Source: Candidatus Poribacteria bacterium
Lineage (GTDB): Bacteria > Poribacteria > WGA-4E > WGA-3G
Assembly: GCA_026706025.1 (NCBI GenBank)
Contig: JAPOZO010000052.1
Span: 1 to 48,336 of the forward strand
Length of the DNA stretch: 48,336 nucleotides
Reading direction: 5' to 3'
Shown in pieces: positions 24,443-30,289 of the stretch (within the stretch, counting starts at the first letter, position 1; every line of letters starts with the position of its first letter). The notes below the pieces were generated by a model, which was given only the letters and a program-made list of their open reading frames with translations, was not told the DNA's origin and searched no databases. Both the position numbers and the translations under genes were made by a program.

Positions 24443-25273
24443 ATGAAAAAAGACATCGCTTACCTTCACACCAAAAAACAGCAGCAGCAACCGATCACTG
24501 TGCTGACCTGTTACGATTACCCGACCGCTTGCTTGCAAGACGAGGCGGGAATTGACATTGTTTTCGTTGGGGATAGCGTTGGCACGAACATCCTCGGCTA
24601 TAAAAGCGAGACGGAAGTGACGATGGCAGATATGCGTCATCATCTCAAAGCGGTACGTCGCGGTGTGACAGATGCCTACCTCCTTGTTGATATGCCTTAC
24701 GCCGCCGACCGCGATGCCAAGCATGCTGTTGCCAATGCGAAACTTTTCTTAGCAGATGGGGCAGATGGTGTTAAATTGGAAGGCGGTATAGAAAAGGTTC
24801 CGATTGTTACCGCGTTGGCTGAACAAGGCATAGAGACTTGCACGCACATCGGTCACAACCCACAAATCCACGGTAGTAAAGCAGCGACACACGGAAAGAC
24901 TTTTGCTAAAGCGAAACGGCTCATTGAAGCAGCATCAGCACTTACTGACGCGGGTGCGAAACTCATCGTGCTTGAGAAAATCACCGAAGAAGTCAGCCAA
25001 ATCATCACGGAGACCGTTGATATTCCGACCATCGGCATCGGTGCCGGACGGTTCTGTGACGGGCAGGTACTTGTCATCAACGATATATTAGGTATCGGTC
25101 CACCCTTCAAACACGCCAAACGCTATCAGGATTACAATCAATTAACTTTTGAGGCAATCAGTCGGTATCGCGAGGAGGTAACGAACGGTACGTTTCCGAG
25201 TGATGCGAACACCTCCCACATTCCCCCAGACAAGCTTGAGCGAGTGCAGAAGTGGTTAAAATTAAGGTGCTAA
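24443..25273 (+). CDS. panB: 3-methyl-2-oxobutanoate hydroxymethyltransferase
   Basis: A 276-residue ketopantoate synthase, the first step of pantothenate (and so CoA and ACP prosthetic group) synthesis. It has VLTCYDYPTACLQDEAGIDIVFVGDSVG, the Mg ligands in DSVG and DMPY, VKLEGG, THIGHNPQ and IGIGAGRFCDGQVLVINDILGI. No ribosome binding site is present; a TATAAT ends 10 bases before ATG, so the message may be nearly leaderless. Its end overlaps the convergent DUF71 gene by four bases. Confidence 0.95.
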   Translation: MKKDIAYLHTKKQQQQPITVLTCYDYPTACLQDEAGIDIVFVGDSVGTNILGYKSETEVTMADMRHHLKAVRRGVTDAYLLVDMPYAADRDAKHAVANAKLFLADGADGVKLEGGIEKVPIVTALAEQGIETCTHIGHNPQIHGSKAATHGKTFAKAKRLIEAASALTDAGAKLIVLEKITEEVSQIITETVDIPTIGIGAGRFCDGQVLVINDILGIGPPFKHAKRYQDYNQLTFEAISRYREEVTNGTFPSDANTSHIPPDKLERVQKWLKLRC

Positions 25274-25908
25274 ATTGCGCGTTCATAGGTGAGATAACAA
25301 TACTCATCTGCATCAACGACGTGTGTGTCTTCTAATTGCACAGGCTCTTTGAAGAACGGTGTATCTAACACCCATGTGTGGTATTCACCCTGTTCACCAC
25401 ATGCATCAATCGGTAGCTGCTTGAGTTCTGAAATGAGATCGGCATTCAAATACCTACCGGCGATCGTCGGTTGAAAGTGCTTTTTGTAAGCGAGGGAACA
25501 GATTATTTTAAATTTGTTGGAGATTAGCGTATCCAATATTGTATGCCGATCCGATTCCCACAACGGTTTATGGACCTCCACCAAACCTGCAGCGACTTCT
25601 TCTATCCAATTCGGCATCCCATTCACCGTAGAAATATCGCCTGTAATTAGCACCTCAATTCCGGTGTCTCTAATCGCCTCAATTTGTTGGCGGTAACTCT
25701 GTTTATAGGGTTCGGAAATCGGCACGAATTCAATTGGAATCCCGACCTTTTGCGCTTGTAGTTCCATGAGTTCCGTTGGGTGTGCATAGAATTGTCGGTT
25801 GTCCGCTGGGACAAAACAGACAAGTCTCCCTATATCGTAAAGATTTAAGGAGACTTGAAATGCGAGTGCGGAATCTTTTCCGCCTGTCCACAACACGGCT
25901 GCTTTCAT
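25270..25908 (-). CDS. DUF71/Dph6-like ATP pyrophosphatase, paralogue A
   Basis: A 212-residue adenine nucleotide alpha-hydrolase-like protein. It has the PP-loop WTGGKDSALAF (residues 7-17), an EVLITGDIS strand, and DACGEQGEYHTWVLDTP near the C terminus, all marks of COG2102. In archaea and eukaryotes the family includes diphthamide synthetase, but bacteria lack diphthamide. Comparative genomics of DUF71 has proposed that some bacterial groups act in B12 salvage. It follows paralogue B with a four-base gap, so the two are co-transcribed. Confidence 0.82.
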   Translation of the reverse strand: MKAAVLWTGGKDSALAFQVSLNLYDIGRLVCFVPADNRQFYAHPTELMELQAQKVGIPIEFVPISEPYKQSYRQQIEAIRDTGIEVLITGDISTVNGMPNWIEEVAAGLVEVHKPLWESDRHTILDTLISNKFKIICSLAYKKHFQPTIAGRYLNADLISELKQLPIDACGEQGEYHTWVLDTPFFKEPVQLEDTHVVDADEYCYLTYERAI

Positions 25909-25912
25909 CCAA

Positions 25913-26680
25913 TTACCCGTCCAGCGGCACTACATCAGCATAGACGTAAGTCGGTGACGTATTGCTGCTTGTGTGAATTTTGTCATCTTTATCCTTGGCT
26001 GAAACGATGTCCCGTTGAACGACTTCTCCCGGTTTTGCGGCGACAGGTGAACTGAACATCGGTCCATCAACAACACATGTATGGAACTCCCCGTTTTCAC
26101 CGAGCGGATCCACACCCTCTGGCAACTCTGCGAGGAGGTTCGCGTCAAACCATCGTCCTGCAAAGTCGGCGGGAACTTTGGTTGGGTTGAGCGCAGTGAT
26201 AATAGCCCGCAAGCCGGAAGCGATCATCTTTTCCGCAAGCAGCGGTGTGTCCTCTCCCCATACTGGGAAAATTGGTGTGAAACCGGTGTCTTTGAGTTTA
26301 TCCTCTCGGTATTCACGGATGTCTTCCAAGAAGAGGTCCCCGAATGCGAAATGCGATGCGGTCAAATGTGCGGGCAACGCTTCCACCTCAGCGAGGAACT
26401 TTCGCATCGCTTCTTCGTAAATCGCATTGGAACAAGGGTACGGGATCGGTATCTCGTATAACGGCACACCGAGTTTCTCAGACTGCTGTTTCAACACCCA
26501 CGCCGGTGTAGAATGAATCGAAACTCGGTCAAATGTTTTTGTGACAGTTGTAAAAATACCGCGGACATCGTAACGTTCGGGTTTTTGGCGGAGTGTGTGT
26601 AGTGCCCACGCAGAATCTTTGCCTGAGGACCAAGAAACTAAGACAGGCACTGGTGCCATTTCGCTTGTCTGTTTAGTCAT
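25913..26680 (-). CDS. DUF71/Dph6-like ATP pyrophosphatase, paralogue B
   Basis: A 255-residue relative of its neighbour with the PP-loop SWSSGKDSAWAL, ASHFAFGDLFLEDIREYRE, and DPLGENGEFHTCVVDGP. It is the first gene of the pair, with AAGG about ten bases before ATG 26680. The substrate is unknown. The two paralogues differ enough to suggest separate substrates or a heteromer. Confidence 0.82.
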   Translation of the reverse strand: MTKQTSEMAPVPVLVSWSSGKDSAWALHTLRQKPERYDVRGIFTTVTKTFDRVSIHSTPAWVLKQQSEKLGVPLYEIPIPYPCSNAIYEEAMRKFLAEVEALPAHLTASHFAFGDLFLEDIREYREDKLKDTGFTPIFPVWGEDTPLLAEKMIASGLRAIITALNPTKVPADFAGRWFDANLLAELPEGVDPLGENGEFHTCVVDGPMFSSPVAAKPGEVVQRDIVSAKDKDDKIHTSSNTSPTYVYADVVPLDG

Positions 26681-26851: not shown

Positions 26852-27415
26852 TTAAAGCGCTAAGAAGTTTGCCAATAAGTCTTTCCCTGCGGTTGTCAAG
26901 ATTGACTCTGGATGGAACTGGACACCCCAGATAGGTAAGGTCTTATGCCGAAGTCCCATGATCTCGTCTTGGTCTGTCCAAGCGGTAATCTCAAAGCAGT
27001 CTGGGAGCGTCTCTCTTTTCACGATAAGCGAATGGTAACGCGTCGCTTCAAACGGGTTGTCTAACCCCTCGAAAAGTTCAGCACCGTTGTGGTGTATCAT
27101 AGAGGTTTTGCCGTGCATCAACCGATCCGCACGAACAACATCACCACCAAATACGTCTCCGATGCACTGATGTCCGAGACAGACCCCTAAAATCGGGACT
27201 TTTCCGGCGAAGTGTTGTATGGTATCGTTGGAGATGCCTGCCTCTTTCGGCGTACAAGGTCCGGGTGAAATGACAATTCGTTCCGGTTGCAGCGCGTCTA
27301 ACGCATCCAACCCTATCTTGCGACTCCGATGTACCTCCAGTTCAGCACCGAGTTCACCCAAATACTGAACCAAGTTATAGGTAAAGGAGTCGTAGTTATC
27401 AATCATTAAAACCAT
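26852..27415 (-). CDS. trpG: anthranilate synthase component II (glutamine amidotransferase)
   Basis: A 187-residue class I amidotransferase supplying ammonia to TrpE. It has [29 protein letters not shown], nucleophile Cys in [15 protein letters not shown], and [14 protein letters not shown] 27415 has AGGAG eight bases upstream, preferred to a longer frame from 27445. It follows trpE by 32 bases. The same type of subunit can serve 4-amino-4-deoxychorismate synthase (PabA), relevant because folK is in the window but no other pab gene is. Confidence 0.94.
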
Positions 27416-27447
27416 TTTTTTTCTCCTATTGCACGGAAAAATCAATC

Positions 27448-28950
27448 CTACAACAAAAGCCCTTGCTCTGCCATCTCAATAGCACTCAGCAGTGCCCACG
27501 CCTTACTCATGGTTTCGTAATACTCAGTTTCAGGTACAGAATCTGCAACAACACCGCCGCCTGCCTGCACATAAGCGGTGCCATCTTTGATAACCGCGGT
27601 TCGGATGGTAATCGCGGTGTCTGCACTTCCAGAGAAACTGAAATAGCCGACTGTCCCACCGTAGGTTCCACGACGTGTCGGTTCGAGTTCGTCAATGATC
27701 TCCATCGCACGTATCTTCGGTGCGCCAGAAAGTGTTCCTGCGGGGAGGCATGCGCGGATCACATCAAAAGCGGTGAGATTTTCACGCAACCGTCCTACGA
27801 CGTGTGAAACGATATGCATTACGTGCGAAAAGCGTTCCACTATCATCAACTCGGTTACCTCAACCGTATGATATTCACATACACGTCCAAGGTCGTTTCG
27901 CCCTAAATCGACGAGCATTACATGCTCTGCCCGCTCCTTCGGATCGGCGATAAGTGCTTCTCCCAACTCACGGTCCTCCTCGGGAGTCTTACCCCGCGGG
28001 CGCGTTCCAGCGATTGGAACGGTCTGGACAATCCCATCTTCTACACGCACCATCATCTCTGGCGATGCCCCGACAATGTCGAAACTATTAAGTTTCAGGT
28101 AATACATATATGGGGACGGATTCACCACGCGTAACGCCCGATAGATATCAAACGGGTCCACAGACACCGGACGATTGAACCGCTGTGAAGGCACAACTTG
28201 TATTATATCGCCTGCTGCGATATATTCCTTAGCACGCAGGACCGCTTCTTCATAAGCAGGCTGTGTGAAATTTGAATCCGGATCCGGGACAGTTTCCGGA
28301 GGGTTACTGAAACGATCCTCCCTATTGCGCCTCAAATGTGTGTCGGAAGCCGCTGTGAGTTTTTCGACCAATGCCCCAATTTTCGCAACGGCATCGGTAT
28401 AGGCGGCATCTACATCTCCATCAATATGCGCGTTTGCGACAATCTTAATCTGATGGTTGACATGGTCAAACACAAGAATCGTTTCGGCAATCATGAAAAA
28501 ACAATCTGGAAGCTGCAGCTCATCTTCGGTATTGTCGGGCAATTCCTCGACGAAACGTACCATGTCGTAACTCATATAACCGACCGCACCCCCGTGGAAT
28601 TGCGGTAAGCCTTCGACATCAACAGGTTGATAGCCCTGCATCACTTCTTCAAGTGCCTTTAGTGGATCTTCGTATTCCTGCGACACTGTTTCGCCTTTTT
28701 CTAAATACTCAATCGTAACCTGATGTCCCTTGCTATGAAAAAGCATTGAAGGCTGACTTCCCAAGAAGGAGTAACGCGCAATGTTTTCACCGCCTTCAAC
28801 GCTCTCCAATAAGAACGCATAATTATCCGGCATCAACTTGTAGAAAGCGGATACCGGTGTCTCCATATCAGCCAAAATCGGTCGATATACTGGGACCGTG
28901 TTTCCTAATTTCGCTTTTTCTCGGAATTCCTCCAACGTCGGATAATACAT
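27448..28950 (-). CDS. trpE: anthranilate synthase component I
   Basis: A 500-residue chorismate-utilising enzyme, the first step of tryptophan synthesis. The N-terminal [19 protein letters not shown] carries the LLES element associated with Trp feedback binding. The catalytic half has [58 protein letters not shown], and [23 protein letters not shown] 28950 has AAGGAG seven bases upstream, preferred to TTG 28968. It lies 233 bases after hisI on the same strand. Confidence 0.95.
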
Positions 28951-28979
28951 CAGTAACTCCTTTTTCAAACCTTTAGTAT

Positions 28980-29182: not shown

Positions 29183-29563
29183 CTAATAGACGGCATCTTC
29201 CTCGAAAACCTTTTCACCTATGACACGCGTTGATTCGCCATCGGGGGAGACTTCCCTAAAAAAGCAGGAACGATAGCCGACATGGCACGCTGCGACTTTT
29301 TGCTCAACCTTTATGAGCAGGGCATCGCCGTCGCAATCCACTGCGACAGATTCCACCGTCTGTGTATGCCCTGAAGTCTCCCCCTTGATCCACAGTTTTT
29401 GGCGGGAACGGCTCCAGAAGCAGACGCGTCCGGTTGATAGGGTTTGTTTGATTGCCTCAGCATTCATGTAACCTACCATCAGGATTTCGTTGTTTGTGCG
29501 ATCTTGAATGACTGCGGCGACTAAGCCGTCACGGTCGTACTTGAGTTCTGATAGAATCTTCAT
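29183..29563 (-). CDS. hisI: phosphoribosyl-AMP cyclohydrolase
   Basis: A 126-residue HisI, opening the purine ring of phosphoribosyl-AMP in histidine synthesis. It has MVGYMNAEAIKQTL, CFWSRSRQKLWIKGETSGHTQ, the metal-binding VDCDGDALLIKVEQ, and ACHVGYRSCFFR. It has no HisE part. ATG 29563 has AAGGAG eight bases upstream; an upstream extension to 29617 would run through the terminator stem and is rejected. It is preceded by a terminator (29580-29621) and a His/Trp-rich reading frame (29673-29774). Confidence 0.95.
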   Translation of the reverse strand: MKILSELKYDRDGLVAAVIQDRTNNEILMVGYMNAEAIKQTLSTGRVCFWSRSRQKLWIKGETSGHTQTVESVAVDCDGDALLIKVEQKVAACHVGYRSCFFREVSPDGESTRVIGEKVFEEDAVY

Positions 29564-29579
29564 ACGAATTCTCCTTTTT

Positions 29580-29621
29580 AAAACAAAAAACCTTATGCAG
29601 CTCGGATTTGTGTGCATAAGG
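29580..29621 (-). terminator. intrinsic terminator in the hisI leader (attenuator)
   Basis: On the minus strand CCTTATGCA (29621-29613) pairs with TGCATAAGG (29599-29591), a 9-bp stem followed at once by TTTTTTGTTTT. It ends about 16 bases before the hisI start and downstream of its promoter, which is where an attenuator terminator would be. GCACAC (29615-29610), spanning the 5' arm and loop, can instead pair with GTGTGC (29692-29687) in the upstream reading frame. Confidence 0.75.
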
Positions 29622-29672
29622 CTTCAACTGGACTTAGAAATGAAAAACGACGATTTTCAATATGTATTTCAG

Positions 29673-29774
29673 TTATCCGTTTAGGCGCACACTCCTCCGC
29701 AAGCAGTTGGAATGCCACCAATGCCAATGATTGACCATGCTATGCAAGTTGGAGTGTGAACGTACAAGTATCAT
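29673..29774 (-). CDS. putative His/Trp leader peptide of the hisI-trpE-trpG group
   Basis: A 33-codon frame from ATG 29774, too short for normal gene calls. It has His at 7, 11, 16, 18 and 21 and Trp at 17, 19 and 20, with the run NHWHWWH at 15-21. A GTGAG element precedes the start by four bases. It lies 43 bases after the predicted transcription start and 51 bases before the terminator stem. CACACTCC (29758-29751, codons 6-8) can pair with GGAGTGTG (29695-29688, codons 27-29), which overlaps the segment able to sequester the terminator arm: a classical 1:2, 2:3, 3:4 set. Expression and function are inferred. Confidence 0.62.
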   Translation of the reverse strand: MILVRSHSNLHSMVNHWHWWHSNCLRRSVRLNG

Positions 29775-29823
29775 TTTTCTCACTTTTCAGGAAAATATTT
29801 GATTCTAAACATTGATTTCATTA

Positions 29824-29852
29824 ATGATACCACATCCAATCTGTGTTGTCAA
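29824..29852 (-). promoter_or_regulatory. promoter for the hisI leader
   Basis: On the minus strand TTGACA (29852-29847) and TATCAT (29829-29824) have a 17-base spacer, giving a start near 29817. Confidence 0.72.
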
Positions 29853-29919: not shown

Positions 29920-29944
29920 ATAGACATTACATTTGAATAAATTA

Positions 29945-30150
29945 ACGGTTCAGGTGCCGGAGAAAGCCGGAGAATAGGGAAGCGCGGTGAGAATCCGCCA
30001 CGGCCCCGCCACTGTGAACGATCGCAAATATCCGCTGAAAAAACCACTGTCAATTTACTGATGGGAAGGTTCAGCGGACTTTTGTAGCGCAAGTTTTGGC
30101 TTGCAAGCTACGCCAAAAGATCGGAAGTCAGGAGACCTGCCTGGATCGTG
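29945..30150 (+). ncRNA. cobalamin riboswitch (adenosylcobalamin-type aptamer)
   Basis: The conserved core is present in order: ggtgccggagaaagccggaGAATAGGGAA, GGTGAGAATCCGCC, CCCCGCCACTGTGA, and the B12 box region GGAAGTCAGGAGACCTGCC (30122-30141). A peripheral arm holds an extra hairpin at about 30086-30114 (gtagcgcaag, ttttgg, cttgcaagctac) resembling a dispersed repeat also seen at about 11408-11430. Riboswitches of this class repress downstream genes when B12 binds. The expression platform appears to be the terminator at 30290-30326. Confidence 0.95.
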
Positions 30151-30289
30151 TTTCACGCATCTGCTTTCGCGGGAAAGCGGTGGAACAGCGCACAGTAGTA
30201 TCCTGTTAGATTAAATATAGAAGTCCGGATTCAGGTATGAAATTTTTGGACCCCATTGCAGGATCAGCGTATATGGAGTGTCGCCGCAT

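Follow-up and report, generated by a model that had tools for sequence, protein, structure and literature searches.

The window analysed here is a whole stretch of 48,336 nt from a sponge-associated Candidatus Poribacteria (contig JAPOZO010000052.1), and all coordinates are positions within it unless another locus is named. On its minus strand, hisI, trpE and trpG follow one another behind a promoter, a short reading frame containing His and Trp codons, and an intrinsic terminator (Table 1). The hisI gene begins with an ATG at 29563, and the true start of trpE is likely the ATG near 28950. In a synteny comparison, the order hisI-trpE-trpG is kept throughout the class, down to approximately 55% HisI identity. 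The two genes hisI and trpE abut in the deepest lineages, and the gap between them varies in the family of the window; hence, an additional trpE promoter is possible in this family. Downstream of trpG, two tandem genes resembling Dph6-type ATP pyrophosphatases, with scores under the curated cut-offs, occupy 25270-26680 (-), and their synteny extends through much of the family. On the divergent strand, a cobalamin riboswitch (29935-30158, +, 103.7 bits) precedes a plus-strand gene at about 30256. An Rfam scan of the window returned this riboswitch and one tRNA, with no model, T-box included, at the leader. Furthermore, no His/Trp leader was seen at the trpC-trpD, trpA and hisD loci of the same genome. 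A shared HisA/TrpF enzyme as the reason for co-regulation is ruled out, as the genome possesses its own TrpF (PF00697) besides two strong HisA/HisF-family matches.

Table 1. Genes and leader elements of the hisI-trpE-trpG locus in the window
Feature	Position	Strand	Basis
Sigma-70-type promoter, TTGACA-17-TATCAT, TG ahead of the -10	29824..29852	-	11/12 matches
Leader peptide frame, 33 codons plus stop, MILVRSHSNLHSMVNHWHWWHSNCLRRSVRLNG	29673..29774	-	kept in the family; altered sequence in other families
Segment 1, CACACTCC, pairs with segment 2 if ribosome-free	29751..29758	-	family-conserved; different 1:2 pairings elsewhere
Regulatory codons 16-21, CAT TGG CAT TGG TGG CAT (HWHWWH)	29712..29729	-	conserved core; stall folding
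Segment 2, CGGAGGAGTGTGC, putative antiterminator strand within the last leader codons	29687..29699	-	DNA kept in two frames
Segment 3, GCACACAAATCCG, pairs with segment 2, overlaps the terminator 5' arm	29603..29615	-	antiterminator pairing and covariation
Intrinsic terminator, 9-bp stem plus TTTTTTGTTTT tail	29580..29621	-	covariation, 25 distinct composites
hisI, phosphoribosyl-AMP cyclohydrolase, first regulated gene	29183..29563	-	NF000768, 172.5 bits (cut-off 126)
trpE, anthranilate synthase component I	27448..28968	-	TIGR00564, 595 bits (cut-off 517.7)
trpG, anthranilate synthase glutamine amidotransferase subunit	26852..27445	-	TIGR00566, 278.6 bits (cut-off 121)

The promoter consists of TTGACA (29852-29847), a 17-nt spacer and a TG-extended TATCAT (29829-29824), and similar TTGAC...TAT promoters are visible 5' of divergent leaders. 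The leader frame runs from an ATG at 29774-29772 to a TAA at 29675-29673, with His at codons 7, 11, 16, 18 and 21 and Trp at codons 17, 19 and 20. The terminator stem is formed by CCTTATGCA (29621-29613) and TGCATAAGG (29599-29591), followed by TTTTTTGTTTT. Upstream of this stem, CACACTCC (29758-29751) is complementary to GGAGTGTG (29695-29688), and GTGTGC (29692-29687) is complementary to GCACAC (29615-29610); the latter 2:3 pairing is lengthened by CGGA (29699-29696) with TCCG (29606-29603). A preliminary description of this DNA had placed the promoter, the His/Trp frame, the terminator and the gene order at coordinates that prove correct to the base. Both complementarities that it reported are likewise confirmed, and the mutually exclusive structures that it derived from them are kept across families with compensating changes.

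A stretch of six residues holding three or more Trp and three or more His is present a single time among the six frames of the window and in none of its 40 mononucleotide shuffles. Within 1.33 Mb of relatives' loci, which were picked for hisI, trpE or hisZ and are in some cases present twice, such stretches are found only as this leader motif (HWHWWH 27, HHWHWW 11). The His/Trp cluster is beyond chance. Taken by itself, the leader has an ordinary minimum free energy (z -1.33), and the evidence is therefore comparative.

Scanning a GTDB genome collection with HisI yielded 52 Poribacteria loci, 50 of them with enough upstream sequence; the Poribacteria genomes compared are metagenome assemblies. 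The leader is present in 48 of these 50 loci (49 of 51 counting the window) and absent from L047 and L049, both of genus g2. All 39 distinct aligned family leaders have Trp at codons 17, 19 and 20, and 38 of them have His at codon 18; Arg replaces the first Trp in L010 and L041. The TCC at codon 22 (29709-29711, -) is invariant in the same 39 leaders. Inside the family, conservation of the core block extends to single bases: His at codons 16 and 18 is encoded by CAT in every case, compared with 65% CAT in hisI-trpE-trpG, and the core His codons as a whole are almost always CAT. Segment 2 is held as DNA across two reading frames, with the endings GSVR and GVCAR, which argues that it is constrained as RNA and not as peptide. 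A codon-position test within the family gave no clear coding signal, the third positions being hardly more variable than the first and second ones (0.146, 0.126, 0.134). Because the core is base-conserved and its third positions vary so little more, constraint on the amino acids and constraint on the RNA are, at the level of sequence, indistinguishable within the family alone and separable only between families. In L028 and L040, an in-frame hairpin insert of 39 nt (13 codons) separates the first Trp from the Trp pair; L028 and L040 are not identical in the loop region of this insert, but the hairpin and the reading frame are kept in both. Inserts between the terminator and hisI, some of them repeat-like, widen this gap by about 60-270 nt in L003, L006, L015, L010, L041, L007, L053, L013, L023 and L050.

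For a wider comparison, 85 Poribacteria genomes were searched, and 16 loci outside the family contain a leader of the same kind with a different sequence. Their cores include HHWHWWWHR, HHWHWWHC, YHWHWWRC, HHWHWRWHS, HHWHWWRR, HRWHWWHF, HNWHWWHS, HHHWCWWHE, RHWHWRS, HWHWGWCVW, HRLGRWWWHWRGH, YHRHWRRLRH and the Trp-heavy HICWWPWWSG. The codon balance ranges from one His and four Trp in L129 to three His and one Trp in L131, and the His codons change between CAT and CAC from family to family. Every one of these leaders is followed by a terminator with a stem sequence unlike that of the window. No leader of this kind was seen in genus g2 (L111, L112) or in G024 (L126), despite linked hisI-trpE, and the upstream sequence is cut off in G004 and G013. 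No such leader lies 5' of hisI at the hisI-trpE loci of an Omnitrophota genome (L073) and of Micromonospora (L075). Overall, most of the phylum has kept the His/Trp leader.

Covariation was evaluated on 25 distinct composites, each combining segments 2 and 3 with the terminator arms; they were cut by eye and pattern at the supposed pairing, a bias in its favour against which slid controls serve as the safeguard. In the terminator, 92% of the cells are paired and eight of the nine pairs have changed on both sides, with at most 47% paired in the slid controls. In the antiterminator, 83% of the cells are paired (slid controls at most 65%), and 16 cells have changed on both sides, compared with 7.4 expected. 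Single 2:3 helices include CTCGGTG/CACCGAG in L130 and GAGCGTGCCCG/CGGGCATGCTC in L129. Duplex prediction recovers the 2:3 pairing in nearly all leaders, mostly at a shuffle p below 0.05, with L131 (p 0.69) as an exception. The 1:2 pairing of 8 bp is clear in the family of the window; elsewhere, 1:2 duplexes are predicted from runs that had no shuffle control, and support for a 1:2 protector outside this family is weak. The comparison of related hisI upstream regions proposed in the preliminary description has thus found the His/Trp frame, the terminator and the alternative pairings conserved, with compensatory changes between families.

In the window leader, a ribosome was positioned on every codon in turn, its footprint reaching 12 nt forward, and the RNA beyond it was folded. 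The predicted terminator probability falls to 0.00-0.09 with the ribosome at codons 16-21, is 0.96-0.99 for every position between codon 24 and the stop codon, and equals 0.99 for the ribosome-free RNA. Codons 15 and 22 are intermediate, and the probability also dips at codons 4 and 5; the predicted stalls on HWHWWH abolish the terminator most strongly. In the window leader, a stall at the regulatory codons is predicted to favour antitermination. Across 63 leaders folded at the stage at which the 3' terminator arm is still missing, upstream RNA occupies the 5' arm with a mean probability of 0.54 for a ribosome on the cluster and of 0.18 for one near the stop. In many lineages, the terminator still prevails in equilibrium folding when the ribosome sits on the cluster, and occupancy is equally high ahead of the cluster and on it; hence, kinetic action of the antiterminator must be assumed in several families, where support for the 1:2 protector is weak.

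The codons of the leader vary with the genes behind it. In the core of 61 hisI-linked leaders, the mean content is 3.07 His and 2.97 Trp. Four relatives in which trpEG is unlinked to hisI possess the same attenuator with a Trp leader: NWCWWWRN in L159, FWRWWWRS in L160 and KRWWYTSW in L156, each without His, and SRWRHID with one His in L157. In the TrpE tree, the hisI-free loci fall in two places, so that linkage and His content changed together twice, both times concordantly, although two independent pairs are too few for a test and the TrpE root is uncertain. The preliminary description had held that leaders keeping the terminator and losing the His codons would speak against joint sensing. 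Such leaders do occur, in these four relatives, but hisI does not stand before trpE there; the loss of His only where hisI is not in front of trpE therefore supports the sensing of His.

In the genus of the window, hisZ-hisG is preceded in 28 loci by a leader with HHHHSVHF or a close variant and no Trp, followed by its own terminator-like hairpin and a T tract. At L171 (2343-2396, -, contig C7 of G000), 5' of hisZ-hisG, the conserved His-only leader is MLNTTIFNIHHHHSVHF, with the pairings GAGCGG/CCGCTC and CCCTGGTAAAC/GTTTACTGGG and a T tract. This leader, a candidate second attenuator for a single amino acid in the same genomes, resembles the hisI-trpE-trpG leader in mechanism class, tandem His codons and terminator-like hairpin, but it reads His only and differs in sequence and structures. 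Since the linked, the hisI-free and the hisZ-hisG leaders differ accordingly, the leader codons match the operon content in three ways. The proposal that one leader senses His and Trp jointly is supported by this comparison, in which the His and Trp codons follow the operon content. An OR gate for two amino acids of unrelated pathways, with codons evolving along with the gene content of the operon (His and Trp, Trp, or His), is the probable interpretation.

An alternative, which is unlikely, is that only the Trp codons sense, the His codons being passengers of RNA constraint or of history. The Trp codons are indeed the most constant part of the aligned family leaders, yet L010 and L041 lack the first of them; the hisI-free relatives do carry Trp leaders, and the CAT codons are conserved as bases within the family. 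Against this, His keeps the same W-H-W-W place across families, where the hisI-free relatives have Cys or Arg (NWCWWWRN, FWRWWWRS), and its codons swap between CAT and CAC from one family to another. Moreover, L131 has a single Trp beside several His, the His-only leader of hisZ-hisG demonstrates that leaders with His codons exist in the same genomes, and codons 16, 18 and 21 all lie within the effective stall window obtained by folding.

Less probable still is a TnaC-like arrest, in which the nascent peptide NHWHWWHSN would stall the ribosome via the exit tunnel or free tryptophan, and not by codon hunger. The nearly fixed N before and S after the core within the family would suit such an arrest, but flanks and core both vary between families (HHWHWWWHR, RHWHWRS, HWHWGWCVW, CWWPWW) while the richness in His and Trp stays, and two loci accommodate the 13-codon insert inside the core. 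That the terminator merely closes a different transcript, with the small frame arising by accident, is hardly credible: the upstream gene is divergent, so that an intergenic terminator is not absurd, and the z-score of the leader fold is weak, but a strong promoter lies directly 5' in the same orientation, and the frame, terminator and antiterminator are conserved with covariation across families.

The preferred reading, to which we assign a probability of roughly 0.85, is that hisI-trpE-trpG is controlled by ribosome-mediated transcription attenuation, with an OR gate that responds to a shortage of charged tRNA-His or tRNA-Trp. What the aligned loci show directly is the set of attenuator parts and how they are conserved, the substitutions that compensate one another, and the agreement of the codons with the gene content. 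Features expected of an attenuator, namely codons matching the operon, a terminator before the first gene and an exclusive 2:3 pairing, appear together in the leader. From these we infer stalling, termination and a response to both His and Trp. With His and Trp plentiful, the ribosome would reach the stop codon and cover segment 2, the terminator 3:4 would form, and transcription would end before hisI. With either amino acid scarce, the ribosome would stall on HWHWWH, past segment 1 and short of segment 2; segment 2 would then be left free to pair with segment 3, no terminator would form, and the operon would be transcribed. In the absence of translation, 1:2 would form and termination would follow.

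E. coli trpL and hisL are arranged alike, with a promoter, a short frame containing end-product codons, pairings of segments 1-4 that exclude one another, and an intrinsic terminator before the first gene; however, each of these leaders senses one amino acid, whereas the Poribacteria leader contains codons for two. In trpL, the regulatory codons are situated in segment 1 and the stop codon between segments 1 and 2. In the Poribacteria leader, by contrast, the 1-2 loop holds the regulatory codons, with the stop codon past segment 2, a stalling geometry unlike that of the E. coli trp leader, as the preliminary description had pointed out. Leaders reading several amino acids are found at ilvGMEDA (Ile, Val, Leu) and thrABC (Thr, Ile), where any single shortage relieves termination. 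These likewise combine codons for more than one amino acid in one leader, but their amino acids share a branched pathway, whereas the His and Trp pathways are separate and are joined here by the mixed content of the operon. The trp attenuators of actinobacteria (Corynebacterium, Streptomyces) are also classical attenuators outside Proteobacteria, with double or triple UGG codons, but they read Trp only; the same study describes histidine operons without conserved upstream RNA structures (PMC1262725).

The literature searched, outside which most subscription journals lie, contains nothing that connects attenuators to Poribacteria, or hisI and trpE to a leader peptide; papers with both Poribacteria and leader peptide concern, by title, natural products and antibiotics. 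While the mechanism class is classical, the joining of two unrelated amino acids, together with codons matching the operon, is unmatched in the papers searched, and priority is not certain. Textbooks present attenuation as a switch that reads a single amino acid or a single branched pathway. In Poribacteria, a phylum without a described attenuator in the papers searched, it appears to link two pathways that are unrelated. The relatives with or without the histidine gene constitute a natural experiment on regulatory codons following gene content.
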